The position numbers and the translations under genes are program-made. A DNA stretch of 17,708 nt. Origin: Rhodoferax sp. (GTDB lineage: Bacteria > Pseudomonadota > Gammaproteobacteria > Burkholderiales > Burkholderiaceae_C). Below the pieces are notes generated by a model. It worked only from the letters and a program-made list of their open reading frames with translations, searched no databases and was not told the DNA's origin. The stretch lies in NCBI GenBank assembly GCA_029946045.1, contig JAQSDS010000399.1, positions 1-17,708 on the forward strand, written 5' to 3'. Positions within the stretch are counted from its first letter, which is position 1. Every line of letters begins with the position of its first letter. This document shows, one piece after another, positions 581 through 17,708 of this stretch.

Positions 581-1132
581 ATGAACGCATTGGTAAAAGC
601 TGACAGCAAGGGGCCGCCAAATCATGTGACAGCGCAAGCGGCTGTGGAAGAAAAACAGTACCTGACCTTCATGCTGGGGGGCGAGATGTTTTCGCTCAGC
701 ATCCTCTGTATAAAGGAGATCATCTGGTATGCCAACCTGACCGAGGTGCCGATGATGCCCGCGTGTATTCGCGGCGTCATCAACCTGCGTGGTGCTGTGG
801 TGCCGGTGATGGACTTGTCCAACCGCTTTGGCAAACCCAGCACGCCCGTGGTCAAAAGCACGTGCATCGTGATTGTGGAGGTGCCTACGGCGATTGAGGG
901 CGAGCACCAGAACATGGGTGTGGTGGTGGACTCGGTGCAGGCGGTGCTGGAAATCCCGACCAGCGAGATCGAACCCGCGCCTAGTTTTGGCGCCAAGATC
1001 AGGCCAGACTTCATTGAAGGCATTGCCAAGGTGGCGGGCAAATTTGTGATCCTGCTCAACGTGGCCCGCGTCCTGTCGATGGAAGAAATCGGGCAACTTG
1101 GGCAGGTGGCCGCCATGGTCGAAGAAGCTTGA
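581..1132 (+). CDS. cheW: Chemotaxis coupling protein CheW
   Basis: This 183-residue protein is a CheW scaffold, which bridges MCPs and the kinase CheA in the cytoplasmic receptor array. From about residue 25 it follows the family pattern: YLTFMLGGEMFSLSI, then IKEII, then MPACIRGVINLRGAVVPVMDL, the last being the most conserved CheW signature, and then a second beta subdomain with GVVVDSV and IEGIAKV. The length is slightly above the usual 150-170 residues because of an N-terminal extension of about 25 residues. The start is fixed by a strong Shine-Dalgarno AGGAGA at 570-575, 5 nt before the ATG. There is no membrane segment or extra domain. It lies between mcp and cheR in one orientation. 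CheV at 9010 carries a second CheW-type domain. Confidence 0.97.
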   Translation: MNALVKADSKGPPNHVTAQAAVEEKQYLTFMLGGEMFSLSILCIKEIIWYANLTEVPMMPACIRGVINLRGAVVPVMDLSNRFGKPSTPVVKSTCIVIVEVPTAIEGEHQNMGVVVDSVQAVLEIPTSEIEPAPSFGAKIRPDFIEGIAKVAGKFVILLNVARVLSMEEIGQLGQVAAMVEEA

Positions 1133-1146
1133 CGACACGCGCACCG

Positions 1147-1174
1147 CGGGCCTGCCTGTCAAAGTGCAGGCCCG
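1147..1174 (+). other. GC-rich 9-bp hairpin between cheW and cheR
   Basis: CGGGCCTGC (1147-1155) and GCAGGCCCG (1166-1174) form a perfect, very GC-rich stem with a 10-nt loop, 14 nt after the cheW stop. No T-run follows, so it is not a standard intrinsic terminator. It may pause polymerase, protect the upstream RNA end, or act with Rho. The cheW-cheR gap of 162 nt is the largest in this operon, so cheR may have its own promoter in the AT-rich stretch 1210-1275, but I could not find a convincing one. Confidence 0.5.
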
Positions 1175-1294
1175 ACTGCCGCCACCTCCTAGGAAATGCG
1201 TGGTCAGGCCGGGTATTTGTAAAAAGTCATCTCGTTTTTAAAGCTTTGGATCAGAGGCAAAAATCAAAAAAACCAGCACTTCGGGACAGACCGC

Positions 1295-2098
1295 ATGAAA
1301 CCCATATCAGACGCAGAATTTTCCCAGTTTCAGCGCTTTATTTTTGAAGCTGCAGGCATCACGATGGCCGACGCCAAAAAAGCCTTGGTCACCGGGCGCT
1401 TGACCAAGCGCCTGGCGCACCATGGTCTGGACGACTTTGGTGCCTATTTCCAATTGCTGGTTTCGGGCCGACACCCTGAAGAAGTGCAGATGGCGGTAGA
1501 TTTGCTGACCACCAACGAGACCTATTTCTTCAGGGAAATGAAGCACTTCGATTTTTTACGTGAGCAGGCGCTGACGGCGCGCAGCCGACCCCAGCCGTTC
1601 CGGCTTTGGAGCGCTGCCAGTTCCAGCGGCGAAGAGGCCTACAGCATGGCTATGGTGCTGGCCGACTGCATGCAGACCACACCCTGGGAGATTGTGGGCA
1701 CCGACATCAGCACCCGAGTGATCGAGGGCGCGCAGCGGGCGCTTTATACCCTGGAGCGCGGGCGGCATATTCCACCCGACTATTTGCGCCGTTTTTGCCG
1801 CAAGGGCACGGGCCAGTTTGACGGGCATTTGCTGATTGACCGCAGCCTGCGAAGCAAAGTGAGTTTTCGTACGATGAATCTGAACGATACGCTGCCGGAA
1901 CAGGGCAAATTCGACATTGTCTTTTTACGCAATGTCATGATTTACTTTAATAACGACACCAAACGCCAGGTGGTTGCCCGGGTGATTTCAACCATCAAAC
2001 CCGGTGGTTATTTTTGTGTGGGGCATTCCGAGAGTCTTAACGACATCACCAACGCCGTGCAAATGGTGGCTCCCGCCATTTACCGTAAGGGAGCCTAA
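1295..2098 (+). CDS. cheR: Chemotaxis protein methyltransferase CheR
   Basis: CheR uses S-adenosylmethionine to methylate glutamates on MCPs during adaptation. The 267 residues show both family domains. The N-terminal helical domain ends with TTNETYFFR (72-80). The methyltransferase domain has WSAASSSGEEAYS (105-117) for SAM binding, GTDIS (135-139), RNVMIYF (212-218) and GHSESL (243-248). Length is close to the usual 270-290. The start has only a weak GGGA at 1283-1286, which suggests modest translation, as expected for an adaptation enzyme needed in low copy. The stop codon region contains the ribosome binding site of cheD, so cheR and cheD are probably translationally coupled. A likely tether partner is the MCP at 1-528, which ends in a pentapeptide-like motif. 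Confidence 0.97.
   Translation: MKPISDAEFSQFQRFIFEAAGITMADAKKALVTGRLTKRLAHHGLDDFGAYFQLLVSGRHPEEVQMAVDLLTTNETYFFREMKHFDFLREQALTARSRPQPFRLWSAASSSGEEAYSMAMVLADCMQTTPWEIVGTDISTRVIEGAQRALYTLERGRHIPPDYLRRFCRKGTGQFDGHLLIDRSLRSKVSFRTMNLNDTLPEQGKFDIVFLRNVMIYFNNDTKRQVVARVISTIKPGGYFCVGHSESLNDITNAVQMVAPAIYRKGA
2087..2093 (+). promoter_or_regulatory. Shine-Dalgarno for cheD inside the end of cheR
   Basis: AAGGGAG lies in the last codons of cheR, 6 nt before a TTG at 2100. This spacing favours TTG 2100 over the ATG at 2121 as the cheD start. The ATG has only AAGGA at 4 nt. Confidence 0.5.
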
Positions 2099-2099
2099 T

Positions 2100-2636
2100 T
2101 TGGCACGGCTCAAGGATTTGATGGATATTTTTCTGCAGCCTGGAGAGCTGTTTGTGGCTGATGCAGGGTTTCAGATTCGGACTATTTTGGGCTCTTGTGT
2201 GTCGATCACCTTGTGGCATCCGATAGCGCGTGTCGGCGGCATGTCGCATTTTTTGTTGCCCATGCGGGGTTCGGTTGTCCCGACGAACATGCTCGATGGT
2301 CGTTATGGGGACGAGGCCTTGCAACTCATGATCAATGACTTGAAGAAAGCCGGGGTTTCCCACAGGCAATGCCATGCCAAGATTTTTGGCGGTGGCAACA
2401 TGTTTCCAGGCAGCACCAGTGCTGCCGGTATCAAGGTCGGACGGCGCAATGGCGAGGCGGCCCGCACTCTGTTGCAAAGCCACGGTATCGAGGTGTTGTC
2501 GGAGAGCCTGTACGGTGTGGGCCACCGACAAATCATTTTCAATGTCAGCAATGGTGACGTCTGGTCGCGCCAGGTCAAGCCGTCTGTGCTTGAAGTCGAC
2601 ACAGAACAAGCTGCCCAGAGCACGACACCCAAATAA
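2100..2636 (+). CDS. cheD: Chemoreceptor glutamine deamidase CheD
   Basis: CheD deamidates specific glutamines on MCPs to glutamates, making them substrates for methylation. The catalytic Cys, His and Thr known for the family are in place. Counting from the ATG at 2121, Thr21 and Cys26 lie in [13 protein letters not shown], and His43 is in GGMSHFLLP. The glycine-rich KIFGGGNMF and the NVSNGD stretch near the C-terminus are also typical. I chose TTG 2100 (178 residues) because a strong AAGGGAG sits 6 nt upstream and the extra residues (ARLKDLMD) read as a normal N-terminus. ATG 2121 (171 residues) is the alternative. The open frame extends further upstream inside cheR, but that part is unlikely to be used. 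cheD starts 1 nt after the cheR stop. In other species CheD also binds CheC, which is not seen here. Confidence 0.95.
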
Positions 2637-2639
2637 GGA
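2635..2639 (+). promoter_or_regulatory. Shine-Dalgarno that decides the cheB start
   Basis: AAGGA overlaps the cheD stop codon (2634-2636) and lies 8 nt before ATG 2648. The earlier in-frame ATG at 2639 would overlap this site, so 2648 is the likely start. The arrangement suggests coupling of cheD and cheB translation. Confidence 0.55.
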
Positions 2640-2647
2640 TGGCCAAC

Positions 2648-3718
2648 ATGACACGAATAAAGGTAATGGTGGTAGACGACTCTGCCGTGGTGCGGCAGGT
2701 GGTGACCGGGCTGTTGTCCGAGGACCCCGAGATCGAGGTAGTGGCCGCCGTGGCCGACCCGTTTTTGGCCATGGCGCGCATGAAAGTGCAATGGCCCGAC
2801 GTGATCGTGCTTGATGTCGAGATGCCGCGCATGGACGGCATTACCTTCCTTAAGAAAATCATGGCTGAGCACCCCACGCCCGTGGTGATTTGCTCGACGC
2901 TGGCAGAAGCGGGGGCCAAGACGTCAATGGAGGCGCTGGCCTCGGGCGCGGTGGCGATCATCACCAAGCCCAAGATCGGTCTCAAGCAGTTTTTGCAGGA
3001 TGGCTCGGACGACATGATCCTGGCTGTCAAGGCCGCCGCGCGAGCCAATGTCAGGCTATTGCATGCGGCAGCGCACAAGAACACGGCCGATGTCATCATG
3101 CCGGCCGCTGACATGCACTCTGCCATGATCCACACCACCGAACGGGTGGTCGCCCTGGGCACCTCCACCGGCGGCACCCAAGCGCTGGAACTGGTCCTGA
3201 CAGGTTTGCCGCGCGTAACGCCGGGCATTGTGATCGTGCAGCACATGCCTGAAAAATTCACGGCGGCCTTTGCCGAGCGGCTCAACGGCCTGTGCCAGAT
3301 TGAGGTCAAGGAGGCCCAAAACAACGACCGTGTGGTCAACAGCCGCGCACTGATTGCGCCGGGTGGCAAACACATGCTGCTGCGCCGCACTGGTGCGCAG
3401 TATTACGTGGAGGTACTCGACGGGCCGTTGGTGAACCGGCATCGGCCTTCGGTCGATGTATTGTTTCGGTCGGTGGCCAAGTGCGCTGGCGCCAACGCGC
3501 TGGGCGTCATCATGACCGGTATGGGTGACGATGGCGCAGCGGGCCTGCTCGAAATGCGCAAGGCCGGCGCGCACACGGTGGCCCAGGACGAGGCCAGTTG
3601 TGTGGTGTACGGCATGCCCAAGGAAGCCGTCAAGCGCGGCGGTGTGGAAAAGTCTGTGCCCCTGAATGCCGTTGGCCGCGAGATCATGCAACAGCTCTCG
3701 GGCGTCATGGTGAGGTAA
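2648..3718 (+). CDS. cheB: Chemotaxis response regulator protein-glutamate methylesterase CheB
   Basis: CheB removes methyl groups from MCP glutamates and is activated by phosphorylation from CheA. From ATG 2648 it has 356 residues. The receiver domain (about 4-120) has acidic Asp10/Asp11, phospho-acceptor Asp56 in [10 protein letters not shown], Thr84 in STLAE and Lys107 in TKP. The catalytic domain (about 165-350) has Ser173 in GTSTGGT, His199 in QHMPEKF and Asp295 in GMGDDGA. The spacing of 26 and 96 residues matches that of the E. coli enzyme triad. All residues needed for activity are present. An in-frame ATG at 2639 would add three residues but overlaps the likely ribosome binding site. 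It is the last plus-strand gene of the operon and converges on the receiver gene ending at 3731, only 12 nt away. Confidence 0.97.
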
Positions 3719-3720
3719 GA

Positions 3721-3748
3721 CGCCCTTGTGCTAAGGGGGGCCAGGGCG
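3721..3748. other. Short convergent gap with possible hairpins
   Basis: The 12-nt gap between cheB and the converging receiver gene falls in a region able to fold. CCCTT (3723-3727) pairs with AAGGG (3733-3737), or CGCCCT (3721-3726) pairs with AGGGCG (3743-3748). There is no T-tract in either direction. The two transcripts probably overlap at their 3' ends. Confidence 0.3.
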
Positions 3749-4231
3749 GCCGGTGTCGTCGCCGCTTCCTTTTGACAGCCAGGGGGCGAGCACCGCCTTG
3801 AGTTTTTCAAGCGAGACGGGTTTGAGCAACACGGCGTCCATACCCACAGCCAGGCAGCGTTGAAGCTCTTCCGGATGCGTGTAGGCCGTGACGGCAATGA
3901 TGGTGCGCCGTGTTTGACCTTGTTTCCTTTCCACCTCACGTATTTTTTCTGTAGCGCCATAACCGTCGAAGCGCGGCATGTGCAGGTCCATCAGAATCAG
4001 TCCTGCCGGTTCTCCACCCAGAACCGCCTCGAATCCTTGCTGACCATTTTGAGCCAGAACAACTTGAACCCCCAACTTTTCCAGCATGAAAAGCATGAGC
4101 CGCTGATGGACTTCGTTGTCTTCGACGAGCAGGACGCGCGGTAAATTTTTCGCGGTTTGGGCTTGCTCCTGGTGTTTGCCCAGATTGTTTGATGTCCGGA
4201 TTTCCGTGCTGGATGGTGCTGGGGAGTTCAT
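3731..4231 (-). CDS. Stand-alone response regulator receiver protein
   Basis: This 166-residue protein is a single receiver domain (about 31-155) with a 30-residue polar N-terminal extension and no output domain. The phosphorylation site is intact: Glu37/Asp38 in LLVEDNE, phospho-acceptor Asp82 in LILMDLHMPRFDG, Thr115 in VTAYT and Lys137 in LLKP. The VEDNE start and MDLHMP motif resemble receivers attached to hybrid kinases more than CheY. I chose ATG 4231 because the longer open frame from 4282 would overlap the end of the upstream sensor gene. From 4231 the gap to that gene's stop is 5 nt. The Shine-Dalgarno is weak, so translation may be coupled. The pairing suggests the receiver works with the c-di-GMP sensor or an unlinked kinase. 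Partner unknown. Confidence 0.9.
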   Translation of the reverse strand: MNSPAPSSTEIRTSNNLGKHQEQAQTAKNLPRVLLVEDNEVHQRLMLFMLEKLGVQVVLAQNGQQGFEAVLGGEPAGLILMDLHMPRFDGYGATEKIREVERKQGQTRRTIIAVTAYTHPEELQRCLAVGMDAVLLKPVSLEKLKAVLAPWLSKGSGDDTGRPGPP

Positions 4232-4236
4232 GTTTC

Positions 4237-7200
4237 TTAAAGGTCGAGCCAGGTATCTTCTGGCACCCATTTTGCCACCCATTGTTGCAGCTCGTGGGCG
4301 GGCATGGGCCGGGCAATGGCGTAGCCCTGCGCCAGATCGCAGCCCATTTTTCGCAGCAGGGTGCCGTGTGCCACGGTCTCTACGCCCTCGGCAATCACTT
4401 CCCGCTTGAAAGCTGAAGCCAGGCCGATGACCCCGATCAGGATGGCCAAGTCGTCAGGGTCGCTGAGCATGTCGCGCACAAAGCTTTTGTCGATCTTGAG
4501 CTGGGTGACACTCAGGCGCTTCAGGTAGGTCAGAGACGAATAGCCGGTGCCAAAGTCGTCAAGCGAACAGCTCACTGCGAGTTGCTTGCAATCGGCTATC
4601 ACCTTTGATACCTGCGCAACGTCTTCGAGCGCACTCGTCTCAAGGATTTCAAGTTCCAGATAGGCGGGGTTCACTTCAGGGTGCGACACCAGCAAGAATT
4701 GAAGCCGAGCGACAAAGTCAGGCTGCTGCAACTGCCGCGCGCCAATGTTGACGCTCACACGCATGTCCAATCCGGCCGTTTTCCAGATGGCGATCTGCGC
4801 CAGAGCGGTGTTGAGCACCCATTCGCCAACGTTGACCGATATTGGGTGGTTTTCAATGACTGGCAGGAACATGTCGGGTGCCAATAATCCGCGTTCCGGA
4901 TGCTGCCACCGGATCAGCGCTTCGACGCCAATGACCTCACCTGTGCGCATGTTCACCTTGGGTTGGTAATGCAGCACAAACTCTTCTTCAGTGAGCGCCT
5001 GGCGAATGCGCTCCAGGCTTTCATAGTGGACCCGCAGACTGCGGTCTTCCACGGCATCGAACACGTTGTAGCGGCCTTTGCCAGCCAACTTGGCCTGGTA
5101 CATGGCCTGGTCGGCTTGACGCAACAACTGATCGGCATCCATCTCCTGGGCTTGTGGGTAGAAGGTAATACCGATGCTGGCGGATACCTGCAAGACCAGG
5201 CCGTTAACCTGCACCGGTCGAGACGCGGCCGCAAGCAGTCGGTTGATCATGGGCTGGCTGGTTTCAATGTCGGCCAGATCGAGCAACACGGCCACAAATT
5301 CATCCCCTCCCAGGCGTGCCAGGGTGTCGCCTTCACGCATGGTTTGCGTCATGGCAGCGGCGAGAGCAACCAATAAATGGTCGCCAACATCATGTCCAAA
5401 GCAGTCATTGACCTGCTTGAAGCCGTCCAGGTCAAGGTAGGCAACAGCGATTTTTTGCTCGCGACGCAGGCACTGCGCCATCGACTGTCCGAGTCGGTCA
5501 GCCAGCAAGACCCGGTTCGGGAGGTTGGTCAGGGTATCAAAATGCGCGATGTGCTCAAGTTGATACTGGTGCTTCTTGAACTCGGTCACGTCAGAAAACA
5601 GAGAAATATAGTGAATGGTTGCACCGCGGTCATCGCGCACGGCACTGATGGTTTGCATAACGGCAAAGGAATCACTATTCTTGCGCCGGTTCCAGATTTC
5701 TCCGTTCCAGTGGCCATCTTCTAGCAGCTTGCGCCACATGGTTTCGTAAAACAGCCTGTCATGAAGGCCCGATTTCAGCAGGCGCGGGTTTTTGCCTAGA
5801 ACTTCGGCGCGGTCAAAGCCGGTGATACGCGTGAACGCTTCGTTGACGTCAACGATGTCGCCGTTCTCCGCCGTGATGATGATGCCCTCGCGGGCATAAG
5901 TGAAGACGCCCGCTGCGAGTTGGAGTTTGGCCTCGGCCAACTTGCGTTCGGTGACATCGCGTGTGACATACAAAACGCAGGGTACGCCGTCAAGTGTCAT
6001 CAGTTGTGCTGATACCAGCGCGGTCAGGAATTGGCCATTTTTCTTCACAAGATCAGTTTCAACCTCTTTGCAAAAGCCGTCCTGCTGCAAGGTATGCATC
6101 AGCGTCTTATGGTCCGCGTTGTGGCGCCAGATGTTGATGTCACGCGTGGTCTTGCCGATGACTTCGTGCTGCGGCCATCCAAGCAATCGGGCAAAACCAT
6201 CGTTGACGTCCAGGTAGTGGCCATCGGCCAGGCGGTTGATGCTGACGCCGTCAGGGCTGGTTTGAAACACGGTACGGTAACGCTCTTCGCTTTGACGCAG
6301 CGCGGCCTCCGCCAGTTTGACATCAGTGATGTCCTGAATGGTTCCGTGCATTTGAACCGGCTGGCCCGCTGCGTCAAAGTCAAGCTTGCCCAGGCCGCGA
6401 ACCCATTTTTCGGCACCGTCGTCGAAGCGAAGGATGCGGTATTCTTTCTCAAAGCGCTGGCCCTTGCCAATAACTTCGGTGTTGAAGTAGTCGCTCATCA
6501 TCGACCGATCGTTGCGGTGTATCAGGTCTTCCCATCCCATGACGGATCGTTCGTAGTCTTTGTCGATACCGAACAGGCTGTCAAGTGCGGGTGAACTTTG
6601 CCAGTTCCCGGTTCGAATATCGAGATGGTAGCTGCCCAGTCCCGCAATGAATTGCGCTTCCCGCAGTGAGATCTGACTCCGGTGTATGGCGCGATCGGCC
6701 CTGCGCTGGTTCACGATTCGCCAGATCGTATCGGCGATCAGGCGTGTGGTTTCAACATCGAGTTCGGTGTAGGCTTGCTGCTTGTTAGCCACGCCGACCA
6801 CCATGTGGATTTGCCCACCCTGGATCACTGGCACGCTGAGAAAACGGATCAATTGCGCATGGCCGTCAGGCAGGCCATGTGCGCCGGCTTCGCTGGCGCA
6901 GTCATTGACCAGCACGGGCGTGCGGCGGCGCAGCGCATCGGCCCAGATGCCAGCTTGCCCGACGCTGTTCGGCGTGGCCGCGACCGGCTGGGCAAAATGC
7001 AGCATCGAGGCGTCTGACCAGGTCAGCATCTCAATGCTTTTCTGGTCATCGAGGACAAAGTGGGCGAAAGCAATTTTGCTCTCGGTCAATGTTTCGACTT
7101 GCGCCAGTCCGTGTTTCAGAAAGGCCTGCTCATCCTGGTTGTCGGCGGCCCCCGCCAAGGCCAGCAATACATTGGAACGCTTGGCAAGAAGCTGAAATCT

Positions 7201-8667
7201 TGCCTCGTTTTGTTTGCGCTCGGTGATATCACGATGAAAAGACTGGATGACCGTTTGGCCGTCAACGTCCGTTAGGCTGGCGGACACCTCCATGGGAAAA
7301 GAATGCCCTTTTTTGTGGATGTGTTCGACCTCGTAGGTCATGGACTCACCCTTCATAAGACGTTGCTTTCTTTCTTCCCAAATCTGGCTAGCGTCCTGGG
7401 TCTGGAAATTTTTGAGATGCATGTGCAGCATATCGTCGGTGCTATAGCCGTGCATGCTGGCAAAAGACTGGTTCACCGCAATCAGCTGGCCGCTTTGGGC
7501 AATCACCATGATGCCGTCAATGGCCCTGTCAAACAGCACACGGTAGCGCTCTTCACGCGCTGTCAGCACAGCCTCGCGTTGCTGCAATGTCGACTGCAAG
7601 CGATTGAAACCCTTGACCAGCTCGCCGATCTCGTCGGGTCCGGAGATGGCAAGTGGCTGCAAAGGTTCATTTTCTTTGGAGAAGGTGGTGAGTTTCCCGG
7701 CGATGATTTGCAGCGGTACCAGCTCGCGTCTGAGCATCCACCAGGTCAGGCCAGCGGCCAGTAACGTCAACCAAAGGGCAGTCCGCAGCATGCGCTCCTG
7801 CATGCTGCGTACCGGCGCAAAGGCTTCGGCGGTCGGCAGCATGGCGGCAACATACCAACCTGCGCTCGGAACATATTTGGTTGAAGCCAGTACCTCGATT
7901 CCGAAAGGATTCAGCATAATGGCCGATCCCTCATAGCCGGCTACGAAGCGATCAATCGCCGGGCTGGTACCCGGGGCTGGCAACACCTCCATGGCACGGT
8001 CTTTGGTACTGGCCGTCACGATCAGCCGGTATTGCGGCGCAATGAGCAAATGACCGCCGGTGCGGCCGTAATTGTTGTCCATCATGGCGTCAAGGAAATT
8101 TTCTGTTTCCAAGTTGATGATCCCGGCAATCGCGCCAATCACCACGCCCTGAGCATCGCGAATGGGTGCTGCCATGCCGATCACGGGTGTCTTCAGTGCT
8201 TTTCCCATGACCGGTTTGCCAATGGTGGTCGCCCCGTTCTTGAGGGCGGCCGCAAGGTAGTCCCGGTCCAGATAGTTCATGCCCAGCCGCTGTGCCGCCA
8301 CGGGCATCGAGGCAATGGCCTTGCCATCGAGGCCGGTGATGAACGCCCCGCCATTAAAGAGCCCCAGAAAAACGGGAAATCCTGCCAGAGCTTGCTGCAA
8401 GCCCGACGGATGGCTCAGCAGCACCGGTCCTGCGGCTGCTGCCAGCTGTTTCAAGGCGACCAGACGTTCGGCAAATCCGTGATCGACGGCCTTGGCAACC
8501 AGTGAGACAGTTGCATGTTGCTGCTCTCCCAACAGGTGCTGCATGTCCTTCTGCAGCATGTGGCTGGCGTAGAAGGCCAGCGACCAAATGCAGGTTAAAA
8601 AAATGACCAGTGTAAAAAGAGTGACTCGGGTTTTGAGTGAGTTCCTCTGTAATCGACTAATAAACAT
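4237..8667 (-). CDS. Membrane c-di-GMP enzyme: Cache-HAMP-PAS-GAF-PAS3-GGDEF-EAL
   Basis: This 1476-residue inner-membrane sensor probably makes or breaks down c-di-GMP. In order: TM helix (about 16-37), periplasmic double-Cache-type sensor (38-290), TM helix (295-313), HAMP (314-368), PAS (372-485), GAF (497-655), PAS_3-like (670-785), two PAS domains (790-910 and 915-1030), GGDEF (about 1037-1205) and EAL (about 1217-1465). GGDEF is intact at 1120-1124, and an inhibitory-site motif REGD lies at 1111-1114. The EAL domain has EAL at 1249-1251 plus SVNIGARQL, LELEILETS, LDDFGTGYSSL, LKIDKSFV, AEGVET and QGYAIARP, so phosphodiesterase activity is likely and dual activity is possible. GTG 8670 precedes ATG 8667. 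AGGG is 6 nt from the ATG, so I chose 8667. A receiver gene follows 5 nt downstream. The ligand is unknown. Confidence 0.95.
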   Translation of the reverse strand: MFISRLQRNSLKTRVTLFTLVIFLTCIWSLAFYASHMLQKDMQHLLGEQQHATVSLVAKAVDHGFAERLVALKQLAAAAGPVLLSHPSGLQQALAGFPVFLGLFNGGAFITGLDGKAIASMPVAAQRLGMNYLDRDYLAAALKNGATTIGKPVMGKALKTPVIGMAAPIRDAQGVVIGAIAGIINLETENFLDAMMDNNYGRTGGHLLIAPQYRLIVTASTKDRAMEVLPAPGTSPAIDRFVAGYEGSAIMLNPFGIEVLASTKYVPSAGWYVAAMLPTAEAFAPVRSMQERMLRTALWLTLLAAGLTWWMLRRELVPLQIIAGKLTTFSKENEPLQPLAISGPDEIGELVKGFNRLQSTLQQREAVLTAREERYRVLFDRAIDGIMVIAQSGQLIAVNQSFASMHGYSTDDMLHMHLKNFQTQDASQIWEERKQRLMKGESMTYEVEHIHKKGHSFPMEVSASLTDVDGQTVIQSFHRDITERKQNEARFQLLAKRSNVLLALAGAADNQDEQAFLKHGLAQVETLTESKIAFAHFVLDDQKSIEMLTWSDASMLHFAQPVAATPNSVGQAGIWADALRRRTPVLVNDCASEAGAHGLPDGHAQLIRFLSVPVIQGGQIHMVVGVANKQQAYTELDVETTRLIADTIWRIVNQRRADRAIHRSQISLREAQFIAGLGSYHLDIRTGNWQSSPALDSLFGIDKDYERSVMGWEDLIHRNDRSMMSDYFNTEVIGKGQRFEKEYRILRFDDGAEKWVRGLGKLDFDAAGQPVQMHGTIQDITDVKLAEAALRQSEERYRTVFQTSPDGVSINRLADGHYLDVNDGFARLLGWPQHEVIGKTTRDINIWRHNADHKTLMHTLQQDGFCKEVETDLVKKNGQFLTALVSAQLMTLDGVPCVLYVTRDVTERKLAEAKLQLAAGVFTYAREGIIITAENGDIVDVNEAFTRITGFDRAEVLGKNPRLLKSGLHDRLFYETMWRKLLEDGHWNGEIWNRRKNSDSFAVMQTISAVRDDRGATIHYISLFSDVTEFKKHQYQLEHIAHFDTLTNLPNRVLLADRLGQSMAQCLRREQKIAVAYLDLDGFKQVNDCFGHDVGDHLLVALAAAMTQTMREGDTLARLGGDEFVAVLLDLADIETSQPMINRLLAAASRPVQVNGLVLQVSASIGITFYPQAQEMDADQLLRQADQAMYQAKLAGKGRYNVFDAVEDRSLRVHYESLERIRQALTEEEFVLHYQPKVNMRTGEVIGVEALIRWQHPERGLLAPDMFLPVIENHPISVNVGEWVLNTALAQIAIWKTAGLDMRVSVNIGARQLQQPDFVARLQFLLVSHPEVNPAYLELEILETSALEDVAQVSKVIADCKQLAVSCSLDDFGTGYSSLTYLKRLSVTQLKIDKSFVRDMLSDPDDLAILIGVIGLASAFKREVIAEGVETVAHGTLLRKMGCDLAQGYAIARPMPAHELQQWVAKWVPEDTWLDL

Positions 8668-13653: not shown

Positions 13654-14100
13654 TTAGGCAATGGTGTCAATATGCGTGCCCAGGACGGACGCATTCTTGC
13701 GATTCTTCTCGATAAGTTTTGCCTCGTCACGAAACGCAAACATGTTTGCGACCAATTGTTGGCGTTCCGCTGCTCGGCTGGCCGCATTGGCTTGATCGAC
13801 CGCATCGTCTAGCAGGGCTTGTCTGCGTTCAGCCATTCCCTTGGCCGCCGCTGTCTGAGTTGATAAATTGTTGAACACCATCTGATCACGTTCTGTCTGG
13901 CGTCTGGCTGCGTTCGCGTAGTCGGCCGACTCATTGGACACGGTCTGTCTGCGATCAACCATTCGCTTGGCAGCCGCTGTCAGACCTAACAAATTATTGA
14001 ACGCGATCTGATCCCGGTCTGCCAGGCGCCTTGCTGCGTTGGCCTGGACAGCCATGTATGAGTACGTGTATGTGGAGGAGCTTACACCGCTGATGTTCAT
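13654..14100 (-). CDS. Unrecognised 148-residue protein of 21-residue repeats
   Basis: I do not recognise a family. After a 19-residue Ser/Tyr/Thr-rich start (MNISGVSSSTYTYSYMAVQ) the protein is six consecutive 21-residue units (residues 20-145), grouped as three 42-residue pairs. Units share Ala-Ala at positions 3-4, a basic residue at 5, and [DE]-R-x-Q around 9-12, for example ANAARRLADRDQ, ANAARRQTERDQ and TAAAKGMAERRQ. Twenty-one residues is three heptads, so a long charged helix or coiled coil is likely. There is no signal peptide, TM segment or cysteine. The start is well supported by AAGGAG 6 nt upstream (complement of 14107-14112); an in-frame ATG at 14157 lies in AT-rich upstream DNA and is less likely. 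It has its own AT-rich promoter region and lies between a diguanylate cyclase and an MCP. A structural or scaffold role in signalling or motility is possible but unproven. Confidence 0.85.
   Translation of the reverse strand: MNISGVSSSTYTYSYMAVQANAARRLADRDQIAFNNLLGLTAAAKRMVDRRQTVSNESADYANAARRQTERDQMVFNNLSTQTAAAKGMAERRQALLDDAVDQANAASRAAERQQLVANMFAFRDEAKLIEKNRKNASVLGTHIDTIA
13666..14043 (-). repeat. Three 126-nt (42-residue) tandem repeats
   Basis: Copies at 14043-13918, 13917-13792 and 13791-13666, each splitting into two diverged 63-nt halves. The first two copies are closest, and the third has drifted most in its second half. All lengths are exact, with no indels. Confidence 0.85.
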
Positions 14101-14140
14101 TTGATTCTCCTTATGTCGGTACCATGACTTTAGTACAAAA

Positions 14141-14167
14141 ATAATAAAAATCAACAATAAACATCAA
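14141..14167 (-). promoter_or_regulatory. Candidate promoter of the 21-residue-repeat gene
   Basis: On the minus strand, TTGATG (complement of 14162-14167) is followed after 15 nt by TATTAT (complement of 14141-14146). The spacer is short for sigma-70, but the region is strikingly AT-rich compared with its surroundings. A start near 14133 would give a leader of about 33 nt containing the AAGGAG site. Confidence 0.35.
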
Positions 14168-14192
14168 ATAAACGTCTAAAACATCAAATAAA
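14159..14192. repeat. Direct repeat AAACATCAAATAAA, 20-bp period
   Basis: Two identical 14-bp copies at 14159-14172 and 14179-14192, starting about 60 bp upstream of the repeat-protein start. A 20-bp period places both on nearly the same DNA face, as expected of tandem activator or repressor sites. The proximal copy overlaps the candidate -35 box. Confidence 0.55.
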
Positions 14193-14219
14193 TCTTAATT
14201 TAAATAAAATATGCCTAAG

Positions 14220-14248
14220 AAAAAAAATGGGTCACGGAAGGCACGACC
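14220..14248 (-). terminator. Intrinsic terminator of the diguanylate cyclase gene
   Basis: Read leftward, GGTCGTG pairs with TGTGACC-like bases across 14248-14230 (7 bp with two G-U pairs and a 5-nt loop), followed by CA and eight T (complement of 14227-14220). It begins 4 nt after the stop codon of the gene ending at 14253. It separates the cyclase from the repeat-protein gene, which therefore needs its own promoter. Confidence 0.65.
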
Positions 14249-14252
14249 AGGC

Positions 14253-16187
14253 TCAAGGAGCCAGGCAGACCTTGTTGCGTCCGGAGGTCTTTGCCGCATA
14301 CAGCGCAAGATCGACCCGTTTGAACCACACTTCAAGCGGCTCATCAGGTTTCAACTCTGCCGCGCCGAAACTGGCCGTCACCGTACCGACATCGGGGAAA
14401 ACATGGGCAGCGGTCAAGGTGCACAGTTTTTCGGCTAACAGCACGGCCTCTGACGCCGCGCAGTGGGGAATAATCACGACAAATTCCTCGCCACCCCAAC
14501 GCGCCAATACGTCGGATTGGCGCAGCGCGCCGCCGACCAACTTTGTTAACCCGATCAGCACCTGATCCCCTGTTGGATGACCAAAGCTGTCGTTGATCCG
14601 CTTGAAGTGGTCTATGTCAAGAATTAACAGCGACAGTGCGTGTTTGTATCGCAGCGCCCGCGTTCGCTCCGTATTGGCGATTTCTTCAAAGTGACGCCGG
14701 TTCCAGACACCGGTGAGCGTGTCGGTTGTGGCCAGCCTGGCAAGTTCCATGTTGGCACTTTGCAGGGCCTGATTAGCAGCCTCGGTGGCATCTTTGGCTT
14801 GCGCAATTTCCTGCAAAAGGCGCTTGTGCTCCGAAATGTCACGCGTCACGCCAAGTATCTCCACAATGTCATGTTCATTCACCAGCGGATGAGCCATCAC
14901 TTCAGTCCATAGCGTGGAACCGTCATTGCAGCGGTACTCAAGTTCGCCCCTGAAACTTGGCGGCGTCCGCCCAGCTTCCAGATCAGATTGCAGCGTAGAT
15001 AAATACCCTTGGGCAATCACTTGGGAGGCCGGGGTATAAATCTCTTCGATCGTTTGTTGCATGGCCTCAAACGGGGTGAAGCCCCGCACATCCATGATGG
15101 ACGGACTGACGTAGGTGAGCATCCCGCCGGGTGCCATGGTCCAAACCACATCCCTGGCGTTATCAGCCAGAACTCGGTGTCGTTTTTCACTGGCGCGCAG
15201 GGCTTCTTCGGTCCATTTACGCTCGGTGATGTCCTCTTTTACCGCCAGGTAGTGCGTGGCCACACCATGGATGTCCGTGATCGGTGAAATATTGGCCCAC
15301 TCGTAATACAAGGAACCATCTTTCTTGCGGTTCACAAATTCCCCCTGCCATTCACCTCCGGCGCTCAGGGTTTCCCACATGCGATTGTGCGAACCCGGCT
15401 TCGTTTGGTCGGTCTTCAGCATCCGCGGATTGCGCCCCACCACTTCATCAAATTGATAACCTGTAACTTTCGTAAAGCGTGGATTGACGTATTCGATGGT
15501 TCCGGTCAGGTCGGTGATCACAATGGATGCCGGACTTTGTTCAACCGCGCGCGTCAGCTTACGCAGTTCTGCTTCAGCGCGTTTGCGCTGCTCAATTTCA
15601 TTTTTGGAACGTGCCAGGGCCCGCTGGGTGGTCTGGTTGGTGTAATAGGCCAGGCTGCCAGTCATGCCAAATAAGGCCGTGTAAAGCAACCACTGTGTGA
15701 CGCCAACACTATCGTTCACTCTGGGTAAGAGGCCCGAATTTTCTGCCAGGATCAAGACCAAAATCGTCAGCGAACTGACACACATGGCGACCAAAATGCC
15801 TGGCCGTCGATACAGCGTGCCGATCAGGGTGACCCAGAAAACATAGACAGCAGCCATCGGCGTGCGGACGGATCCCAAATTGATGTTGGTCAGTGTCAGC
15901 AGGACAAAAAAGACAAGGACCACGATGCCTTCGACCATGCCTGACTTGCCGCTGCGCAGCAAACGCCGACTCAGTAACAGCAGAACAAACCACAGTGTGG
16001 CGATGAGCAGGACACCGGTGGGGACGTGGCGCCCGATCAGGGCACCAAAAATGACAAGCCCAGTGAAGAAGAGATTGATCAGGATCGTTTGATTAAGCAA
16101 GCCGGCCCGGCGGGACTTTTCTTCGTCGCCGTTGAAGACAGGGGCTTCGCCCCATTGACTGATGGCCTGGATCAAAGGGTTGTTCAT
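14253..16187 (-). CDS. Membrane diguanylate cyclase: six-TM, PAS-PAS-GGDEF
   Basis: This 644-residue protein should make c-di-GMP from two GTP. Six hydrophobic helices (about 33-52, 57-75, 84-104, 109-126, 129-148, 164-182) form an integral membrane sensor of MASE-like type, class not certain. A coiled coil (about 188-210) leads to PAS 1 (211-323), PAS 2 (335-455), another coiled coil and the GGDEF domain (486-642). The active-site motif is GGEEF at 565-569, and an inhibitory-site motif RQSD lies at 556-559, so product inhibition is likely. DIDHFKRINDSFGH at 524-537 is also typical. No ribosome binding site is obvious before ATG 16187, and a hairpin with a T-run ends about 20 nt upstream, so translation may be low or regulated. 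It lies downstream of a degenerate hybrid kinase in the same direction. Confidence 0.94.
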   Translation of the reverse strand: MNNPLIQAISQWGEAPVFNGDEEKSRRAGLLNQTILINLFFTGLVIFGALIGRHVPTGVLLIATLWFVLLLLSRRLLRSGKSGMVEGIVVLVFFVLLTLTNINLGSVRTPMAAVYVFWVTLIGTLYRRPGILVAMCVSSLTILVLILAENSGLLPRVNDSVGVTQWLLYTALFGMTGSLAYYTNQTTQRALARSKNEIEQRKRAEAELRKLTRAVEQSPASIVITDLTGTIEYVNPRFTKVTGYQFDEVVGRNPRMLKTDQTKPGSHNRMWETLSAGGEWQGEFVNRKKDGSLYYEWANISPITDIHGVATHYLAVKEDITERKWTEEALRASEKRHRVLADNARDVVWTMAPGGMLTYVSPSIMDVRGFTPFEAMQQTIEEIYTPASQVIAQGYLSTLQSDLEAGRTPPSFRGELEYRCNDGSTLWTEVMAHPLVNEHDIVEILGVTRDISEHKRLLQEIAQAKDATEAANQALQSANMELARLATTDTLTGVWNRRHFEEIANTERTRALRYKHALSLLILDIDHFKRINDSFGHPTGDQVLIGLTKLVGGALRQSDVLARWGGEEFVVIIPHCAASEAVLLAEKLCTLTAAHVFPDVGTVTASFGAAELKPDEPLEVWFKRVDLALYAAKTSGRNKVCLAP

Positions 16188-16207
16188 AAGATGAGCGAAT
16201 AAGACGT

Positions 16208-16237
16208 AAAAATCTGGAGACCACCAGCCAGACTTTT
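16208..16237 (-). terminator. Terminator-like hairpin just upstream of the diguanylate cyclase
   Basis: Read leftward, AAAAGTCTGG pairs with CCAGATTTTT (10 bp with one G-U pair, 10-nt loop). The stem's last arm ends in a T-run. It lies 45 nt after the kinase stop and 20 nt before the cyclase ATG. It could be a bidirectional terminator or an attenuator for the cyclase. There is very little room for a cyclase promoter after it. Confidence 0.45.
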
Positions 16238-16281
16238 GGGCGAAGCTGACGTCATTCGAGCTAGCTTGATTCTGCGCTATC

Positions 16282-17708
16282 TTAGAGGAATCTGACTCCC
16301 AGGTGTGTCTTCAACGCGTCATAAATTTCACCGAATTCATAGGGCTTGCCGACGGCGCTGTCTATGTTGGCGGAAATGTGGGTGCCATAGTCGTTCTGAT
16401 AGGCACAGTCGGTAACGGCGACGATCTTGACCGCATGGCCGTTTGCGAGCGATCTGATTTTTTGCGATGTCTCAACGCCATCCATTTCCGGCATCTCGAT
16501 GTTCATCAGGATCAAGTGCGGCTGCCACTCCAAAAACATCGTCACGCCTTGGTGACCGTTGCTCGCGATGCGCACTTGCAATCCGGCCAAGTCAAGAATT
16601 TCAGCCAACAATTTCGAGTTTTCAATCTGGGGTTCAATAATCAGGATGCGTTGTTCAGGCTGGCCGGGTGCCAACGCGACCACCTTGCCGTTTTCTCTCT
16701 TGTCGACGTACCTTGCAGGCTCCTGCGGGGACTCAAGAGGCAACTCGACACGGAACAAGACGCCCTTACCGGGGGCACTTTGAGCGCTGATACGCCCCCC
16801 CAACAGCTGCACAAACCGCTGTGACACGAGCAATCCCAGCCCAGTGCCAGCGGGCGCCGTCGGACTGAAGGGCTCAAAAACATTCTCGTGATTAGTCATA
16901 AGGGGGTCAACACCACTGTGCTCGACCTCTATGCTGAATAGTGGCGACACAGCCGGATCATGGCTGGTGCTCGCACGCACGGTGATGCTGCCATGCGCGT
17001 TTAACTGCATGGCGCTGTCGATCAGCTTCATGAGCGTCTGGCGCAGTTTTGATTTATCGCATTGGACGTAAGGCGGAAAGCTTGATGAGGGGTCCAGTGT
17101 CAGGTCCAGGCCCTTTTCCTGGGCCGCGAGCAGCATCCGGGCTGTGACCTCTTGCATCATTTCACGCAAGTCGAAGGTCGATGTGTGTGTCTCCATACGA
17201 CCCGCATCGATTCTGGCCAGATCAAAAAGCTCGTCAACGAAGGTCAACAGTTGAGCACTGCTGCGGACGACATGAACCATATCTTGGCGCTGTTTTTCGA
17301 ACATTTCGGGGTCTTCGCGCAGGCGCAGGACACGCGTCTGAATGGCATTCAGCGGAATGCGCATTTCACGGCTCATATTGACCAGGAACACACTTTTTGC
17401 AAGGCTTGCGGCCTCGGCAGCCTCTTTGGCCTGCGTTAATTCGTTCGTGCGCATGTCCACCACGTCTTCGAGGTGGTGGCGATACATTTCAAATACCTTT
17501 TCATTGTGTTTGCGTTCGGTGATATCTGTCAGAACAATTCGCAACACCGGTATTGCGCCGTTTGTCTGGACCAATAGAGCCAGTAGCTGCACCCAGAATG
17601 GTTTGCCGCCCACTTGCAACATCCTCAGTTCGCAGGTCTGCTGTGCGCTACTTTCCTTGATTCGCTGGTGCATCAGGTAGTAGATGTCCTGATCGTCCGC
17701 AAGGATGA
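16282..17708 (-). CDS. PAS-histidine kinase-receiver hybrid with replaced catalytic residues (5' end outside window)
   Basis: The frame is open to the right edge, so the true start is outside; the first internal ATG (17673) is mid-PAS. Order: end of a PAS domain (to about 17520, ending VLTDITERK), coiled coil, HisKA-like dimerisation domain, HATPase-like domain, receiver. By analogy it would be a BarA/EvgS-type hybrid kinase, but key residues differ. The H-box reads NMSREMRIPLNAI, with Arg (codon 17370-17368) for the phospho-His. The N-box reads LMKLIDSAMQLN, with Ser (17016-17014) for the Mg-binding Asn. The G1 box reads VEHSGVDP instead of VxDTGIGI. The G2 region GTGLGL is kept. The receiver reads LIIEPQIEN and LILMNIEMPEMDG, with Asn (16503-16501) for the phospho-Asp, while Thr and Lys (AVTDCAY, GKPY) remain. 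The frame is intact, so this looks like a maintained pseudokinase and pseudoreceiver, not a decayed gene. Confidence 0.92.
   Translation of the reverse strand, partial: ILADDQDIYYLMHQRIKESSAQQTCELRMLQVGGKPFWVQLLALLVQTNGAIPVLRIVLTDITERKHNEKVFEMYRHHLEDVVDMRTNELTQAKEAAEAASLAKSVFLVNMSREMRIPLNAIQTRVLRLREDPEMFEKQRQDMVHVVRSSAQLLTFVDELFDLARIDAGRMETHTSTFDLREMMQEVTARMLLAAQEKGLDLTLDPSSSFPPYVQCDKSKLRQTLMKLIDSAMQLNAHGSITVRASTSHDPAVSPLFSIEVEHSGVDPLMTNHENVFEPFSPTAPAGTGLGLLVSQRFVQLLGGRISAQSAPGKGVLFRVELPLESPQEPARYVDKRENGKVVALAPGQPEQRILIIEPQIENSKLLAEILDLAGLQVRIASNGHQGVTMFLEWQPHLILMNIEMPEMDGVETSQKIRSLANGHAVKIVAVTDCAYQNDYGTHISANIDSAVGKPYEFGEIYDALKTHLGVRFL

Follow-up and report, generated by a model that had tools for sequence, protein, structure and literature searches.

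A degenerate hybrid histidine kinase with a candidate pseudo-receiver on a contig with chemotaxis genes in a Rhodoferax draft genome

The window analyzed here, a stretch of 17,708 nucleotides, is an entire contig (C399) of a draft assembly of 481 contigs that is 86.7% complete. At one end of it, at 16282..17706 on the reverse strand, lies a degenerate gene of the HisKA-HATPase_c-receiver type with a trace of a PAS domain. It comprises 474 codons plus a stop, its N terminus is cut by the contig end, and its translation contains no stop codon. Three domains are recognized by Pfam, each above its curated cut-off: HisKA (DHp) at residues 104-169 (17200..17397, E 1.8e-07), HATPase_c (CA) at residues 217-325 (16732..17058, E 1.4e-15), and a receiver at residues 354-465 (16312..16647, Response_reg E 3.3e-16), right behind which the chain terminates. 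The scores of the first two are reduced relative to those of a canonical relative, G045a: 31.5 versus 67.7 bits for HisKA and 58.1 versus 88.1 bits for HATPase_c. A PAS-like stretch at residues 17-64 (17515..17658) matches PAS_9 at an E-value of 0.034, its 14.9 bits falling short of the cut-off (27). Because the gene is open to the contig end, its N-terminal sensor lies outside the contig, and an ATG within the PAS-like stretch, at 17673, need not be the start. No contig overlapping this end was seen in the assembly, in which the 25-base string at 17656-17680 occurs once (the last 28 bases lie outside the string). A search for the missing region in the same genome, with the N terminus of the G045 kinase as probe, gave four weak matches (residues 160-302, 30 to 37 bits), one of which is the GGDEF-EAL gene of the window itself. 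Structure prediction from the single sequence was uninformative (mean pLDDT 36.8).

On the forward strand, cheW, cheR, cheD, and cheB (581..3718, Pfam) are 86 to 92% identical to a cluster in the same-genus genome G045 that adjoins a receiver and a kinase. A stand-alone receiver (3731..4282, reverse strand, Pfam), in which the phosphorylation residues are present as judged by eye, lies 12 kb from the degenerate kinase gene, and between the two are a GGDEF-EAL gene, cheV, a receptor gene, a small gene, and a GGDEF gene. The receiver and GGDEF-EAL open reading frames overlap by 46 bases (4237-4282) on the same strand, and the full-length relative of the GGDEF-EAL gene in G045 is found on a separate contig (72% identity). 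The small protein (13654-14157, reverse strand) carries, as judged by eye, roughly three alternating repeat units of the type ANAARR..ERDQ..FNNL..TAAAK..RRQ, and a 95-base stretch of only 30% GC (14158-14252) lies upstream of it.

The next gene downstream of the kinase encodes a PAS-GGDEF diguanylate cyclase (14253..16187, reverse strand, Pfam), for which a GGEEF motif, an upstream RxxD (RQSD), and a hydrophobic N-terminal part were identified by eye. The two genes are on the same strand, separated by 94 bases (16188-16281) within which a consensus scan found neither a terminator-like nor a promoter-like match. The same scan placed a terminator-like hairpin with a T run just past the cyclase stop codon (14230..14248, reverse strand); overall it reported 10 terminator-like sites against 4.4 expected in shuffles. 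From this arrangement, the cyclase gene may share a transcript with the kinase gene. The sensor half of the cyclase protein recurs at 61% identity over 460 residues in a protein of another genome (L076, G096:C154, 5672-8272), the remainder of which matches the kinase and the receiver instead of GGDEF.

The replaced residues were located by alignment with 43 relatives, 18 of which were compared motif by motif, and the catalytic roles that we assign to the aligned positions are those established for histidine kinases. All positions that follow are on the reverse strand. The phospho-His has become Arg (His113Arg, CGT, 17368..17370), and four residues further on, the Thr at the phosphatase position has become Ile (Thr117Ile, ATT, 17356..17358). 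The N-box carries Asn227Lys, Asn231Ser, Lys234Gln, and Phe235Leu (17002..17028), and the G1 box carries Asp263His and Gly267Asp with Gly265 kept (16906..16920). In the receiver, the acid pocket has Asp359Pro (CCC, 16630..16632) beside a retained Glu358, and the phospho-Asp is replaced by Asn (Asp402Asn, AAC, 16501..16503). The G2 box GTGLGL with its three glycines (16831..16848), Glu114, and both Thr432 and Lys454 at the ends of the receiver stretch 16345..16413 are retained. Two further changes, Gly124Thr and Phe125Arg, alter the face of the DHp domain beside the phospho-site.

His113, Asn227, Asn231, Lys234, Phe235, Asp263, Gly267, and Asp402 are each found in all 43 relatives and none of them in the query. 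Column 117 holds Thr in 40 relatives and Ser in 3, and column 359 Asp in 40 and Asn in 3. The original prediction, which named SREMR, DSAMQLN, EHSGVDP, and LMNIEMP as altered motifs and the G2 loop and conserved Thr/Lys as kept, is borne out by the translation at each of these places, the kept features being GTGLGL, Thr432, and Lys454. Its list of losses was incomplete, lacking Thr117Ile, Asn227Lys, Lys234Gln, and Phe235Leu. It had also described IEP as replacing a VDD pair; IEP is indeed present, but the normal acid pair in this sub-family is Glu-Asp rather than Asp-Asp, and only the second acid, Asp359, has been lost. Its central observation, that the phosphorelay is lost at both ends with the frame intact, holds against the alignment and the stop-free translation. 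The protein thus has the HisKA and HATPase_c domains and the absent phospho-His of a pseudo-histidine kinase, together with the receiver fold (Pfam), Asp402Asn, and Asp359Pro of a pseudo-receiver; with His, N-box, G1 box, and receiver Asp all altered, it is not a canonical hybrid histidine kinase.

As to conservation of the Arg and Asn in homologues, which the original prediction had suggested examining, the relatives read carry the normal residues: in addition to the 43 that were aligned, all 5 further relatives are normal at the His, both Asn, the G1 Asp, and the phospho-Asp. These 43 and 5, in which motifs were read, are matches that passed the E-value limits and had a locus. Proteins were searched in 40 relative, 89 genus, 399 family, 399 order, and 369 class genomes; the samples overlap, and the last three were each drawn evenly from a larger set. 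Among the best candidates scored per genome (at most 40 for the relatives, 18 for the genus, and 4 for family, order, and class), a second copy with the replacements of the query was not found. A pattern search of genome contigs, a method that reaches close relatives only, gave 10 matches, including 2 distant relatives and no copy with the same replacements, and matches in a search of 3098 plasmid records were each below 60% identity to the query. The closest relatives found share about 46 to 48% identity with it. As no orthologue with the same replacements turned up among these candidates, conservation of the Arg and Asn cannot be shown, and the degenerate kinase is represented by a single truncated gene of a single draft assembly.

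A gene at the end of a contig in a draft of 481 contigs invites the suspicion of a sequencing, assembly, or binning artefact. The changes are, however, many and scattered through an open coding frame, and several require two base changes, as does Asp359 to CCC, which tells against the sequencing error at key codons that the original prediction had allowed for. The codon-position composition of the gene is also like that of its neighbors (GC3 0.66 versus 0.58-0.79), and the same contig carries the che genes that so closely match those of a genome of the same genus. We regard an artefact of any of these kinds as hardly credible.

The extent of the divergence can be judged against the 94 columns that do not vary among 16 family members. 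Of these, 28 (30%) are changed in the query and 66 are kept, whereas 0 to 6% of invariant columns were changed when each of the 16 was left out in turn as a control. A looser set, of 42 relatives and columns with conservation of 95% or more, gives 14 changed columns out of 56 (25%) in the query, compared with 0 to 12% for left-out members. (Two relatives with near-identical cores, G013b and G013c, are both among the 43; G013c was left out of the tree and of the 16-member and 42-relative sets. The corresponding genes are neighboring hybrid kinases, 4842-7232 and 8628-14075 of L027 (G013:C281), whose HisKA-HATPase-receiver cores are, by eye, nearly the same but whose sensors differ; this resembles a core that was recently duplicated or gene-converted while the sensors were exchanged.) The divergence of the query therefore exceeds ordinary divergence within the family. 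By domain, the changes amount to 11 of 24 family-invariant columns in HisKA, 10 of 31 in HATPase_c, and 6 of 30 in the receiver (residues 353-468). They are concentrated at catalytic positions, where 10 of 18 are changed, as compared with 18 of the 76 invariant columns outside this set (Fisher p 0.019); the 18 catalytic columns are our own choice from general knowledge of histidine kinases and were not picked blind. Within its own genome, the query is the sole exception at the phospho-site among the H-boxes that could be read: 29 HisKA matches were found, and of the 18 that fit the H-box pattern (11 did not), 17 have His and 1, the query, has Arg.

In a maximum-likelihood tree of 43 rows including the query, its sister clade is formed by the kinases G045a and G012, with support of 100/98. 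Both are canonical, belong to the same genus as the query, and lie near che genes. The end branch of the query is long, at 1.08 versus 0.33 and 0.36 in the sister clade. The gene order in G045 is kinase followed by stand-alone receiver and, in the opposite orientation, cheB, cheD, cheR, a receptor gene, cheW, a second receptor gene, and cheA. Downstream of the G012 kinase come a GGDEF gene, a receptor-like gene, another frame, and the first part of a cheA relative that has MCPsignal and Hpt domains (Pfam) and is 69% identical over 306 residues to the G045 cheA. G045a begins with an N-terminal receiver and a PAS domain (Pfam), the counterpart of which in the query would lie off the contig. Several canonical relatives (L023, L024, and L026) have, by eye, a tail past the receiver of the type LTAEMLAVLP, which is absent from the query, G012, and G045a.

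The receiver that directly follows the canonical kinase in G045 is a relative of the stand-alone receiver of the window (65% identity over 127 residues). It is probable that a kinase-receiver pair was split by rearrangement, the direction of change being inferred. Synonymous divergence differs along the cluster. For the che genes, dS between the window and G045 ranges from 0.42 to 2.02 (cheD 0.42, cheR 0.58), whereas that for the receiver is saturated and that for the kinase pair is 2.8, which suggests that the history of kinase and receiver is older than that of the adjoining che genes. The two receivers concerned (3731-4282, reverse strand, and L059:10451-10984) are 60-65% identical, and their saturated dS beside the low values of the nearby cheD and cheR points to different histories in one cluster.

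Such a background raises the question of whether the gene is simply decaying, its role having been lost, perhaps when about 12 kb of genes came to separate kinase from receiver, and no stop codon having been met yet. The long end branch, the changes at 18 non-catalytic invariant columns, the occurrence of the degenerate gene in one genome only, and the adjacency of kinase and receiver in G045 are all in keeping with decay. The original prediction had taken close relatives with normal His and Asp, together with relaxed selection, as the signature of simple decay. The relatives that were read are indeed all normal, though none is closer than about 48%; relaxation, on the other hand, is not shown. 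In a branch codon model (383 codons, 12 sequences), dN/dS on the query branch is 0.19 against a background of 0.117, a difference that is not significant (1.4 lnL). Fixing the ratio at 1 on this branch is worse by 17.4 lnL units on the tree topology and by 18.9 when the query is constrained to pair with G045a. Ratios of 0.12 and 0.3 fall at most 1.7 lnL short of the optimum, and one of 0.4 falls 4.3 short. A two-phase model, in which background selection gives way to neutral decay, is best with a neutral phase of zero under both topologies. A terminal neutral phase of 0.2 changes per codon, with about 3 expected stops, costs 0.7 lnL, and one of 0.4 costs 2.0, so that a short recent neutral phase remains compatible with the data.

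With synonymous sites saturated, the stop-free frame carries more weight than dN/dS. The nonsense/missense opportunity in the gene is 0.046 and the query branch has a length of 1.09 changes per codon in the codon model; a wholly neutral branch would therefore be expected to yield about 14 to 18 stops (a hand calculation over 385 to 474 codons), and none is observed. In 20,000 neutral simulations, a mean of 22 missense changes occurred before the first stop; at least 10 catalytic losses preceded it in 1 run (5e-05), and at least 28 changed invariant columns at a frequency of 0.0011. Taking the dS of the che genes as a clock, a pairwise dN of 0.53 gives a ratio of 0.26 to 1.26, a range that reaches 1, and relaxed selection is thus not firmly excluded. 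On average over the query branch, selection has been purifying. The visible part of the gene does not have the properties of a pseudogene, and the retention under selection proposed in the original prediction, as opposed to pure neutral decay, is upheld by the codon model and by the frame set against simulation. Simple decay is unlikely, although we take it seriously as an alternative.

What, then, might be retained? Without its His, Thr, ATP-pocket residues, and Asp, the protein is unlikely to autophosphorylate, act as a phosphatase, or carry a phosphoryl group. It would be left with the surfaces of a DHp body, a CA fold, and a receiver fold, and as the known dead kinases work through such surfaces, a binding role toward a kinase or a stand-alone receiver is, by analogy, the best reading. 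The scaffold, the inhibitor by heterodimerization, and the cyclase regulator of the original prediction would be candidate forms of a non-catalytic role. We consider it somewhat probable that the protein is a pseudo-histidine kinase with a pseudo-receiver, kept as a folded, dimer-forming binding protein. It would descend from a hybrid sensor kinase belonging to a chemotaxis-linked sub-family, with the autokinase, phosphatase, and phospho-receiver chemistry lost along the way. The sensor part would alter the shape of the DHp/CA/receiver body with no phosphate involved, and this body would bind and tune a partner, either a catalytically active sensor kinase, in the manner of RetS, or a single-domain receiver in its phosphorylated state, as in the case of DivL and DivK. 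The co-directional diguanylate cyclase gene downstream would be a possible co-regulated output. Folding is suggested by the Pfam matches; dimerization, partner, and output are inferred. Against this reading stand the 18 of 76 non-catalytic invariant columns that also changed and the altered DHp face (Gly124Thr and Phe125Arg), which speaks against the protein having simply kept its former receiver partner.

A more specific version is that of a rewired che-linked pair, in which the dead kinase would read the phosphorylation of the receiver by binding and pass the signal to a co-transcribed cyclase, such that a chemotaxis-linked signal would set c-di-GMP without phosphotransfer. We think this improbable. 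Alternatively, the pseudo-receiver or the CA fold could serve as an input domain that senses a small molecule independently of phosphate, for example the c-di-GMP of the neighboring cyclase. The position of that cyclase gene just downstream and the milder alteration of the receiver than of DHp and CA are in line with this, and ShkA offers a precedent in a pseudo-receiver that binds c-di-GMP (PMC7010744). In ShkA, however, the pseudo-receiver is central and the kinase active, whereas the degenerate receiver of the query is terminal and aligns to residues 368-480 of 6qrj. Sensing of this kind appears very improbable.

Comparison with known dead kinases places the query in a wider setting. DivL is not known to have a receiver. 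RetS has its own periplasmic and membrane sensor and keeps the phosphatase position, which is Thr117Ile in the query; sequence similarity between the two is confined to the kinase core, the query's sensor lying beyond the contig end. RcsD combines kinase-like and receiver-like parts without known chemistry and carries an active HPt domain, whereas the query ends right after the receiver and matches the RcsD family with 71.9 of 634 bits, far under the cut-off. RetS (6dk7 and 6dk8) and DivL (4q20) are among the PDB sequence matches of the query, reflecting a general likeness within the kinase family.

Published descriptions show how a dead kinase can act. DivL of Caulobacter has a histidine-kinase fold without the phospho-His, as does the query; it functions with neither kinase nor phosphatase activity, binding the phosphorylated receiver protein DivK and modulating another kinase, CckA (PMC4211667). 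According to the same source, it has Tyr (Ala in one species) at the phospho-site and keeps its H, N, G1, F, and G2 boxes, whereas the query has Arg there, has lost N-box and G1 residues, and contains a dead receiver; it is consequently not a DivL. RetS of Pseudomonas aeruginosa lacks kinase activity and is described as down-regulating GacS through direct interaction (PMC5992135; PMC12189002), and also as acting by phosphatase activity and phosphate uptake (PMC12189002). With neither the H+4 Thr nor the phospho-Asp left in the query, it is mainly binding, among these modes, that would be open to it. A laboratory-evolved ChrS variant is described as helping a paralogous kinase (PMC9491836), and another source mentions a hybrid kinase of Caulobacter that lacks the conserved His (PMC11481889). 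The pseudokinases of PMC6791715 are of another kind.

In a survey, 722 of 76,471 HisKA domains (0.9%) lack the His and 3,111 of 152,269 receivers (2.0%) lack the Asp (PMC12632262). The "undescribed signaling mode" of the original prediction is accordingly not supported, pseudo-histidine kinases such as DivL, RetS, and the ChrS variant having already been described. Like other pseudo-receivers, that of the query retains the receiver fold without the phospho-Asp, but here it is joined in one chain to a dead kinase. A limited literature search of a partial library turned up no bacterial hybrid kinase that we recognized as dead at both ends. The dead histidine kinases in the cited descriptions retain part of their machinery, DivL its other boxes and RetS its phosphatase activity. 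The query is an unusually thorough example of this known class. A kinase that had lost its His, phosphatase Thr, ATP-pocket, and receiver residues together, with the frame kept under selection, would be a clean natural test of signaling through binding only. The sister kinases G045a and G012 share its HisKA-HATPase-receiver core and che-gene vicinity, but are normal at the phospho-His, both N-box Asn, the G1 Asp, and the phospho-Asp. As canonical kinases near like chemotaxis genes, they provide the matched comparison.
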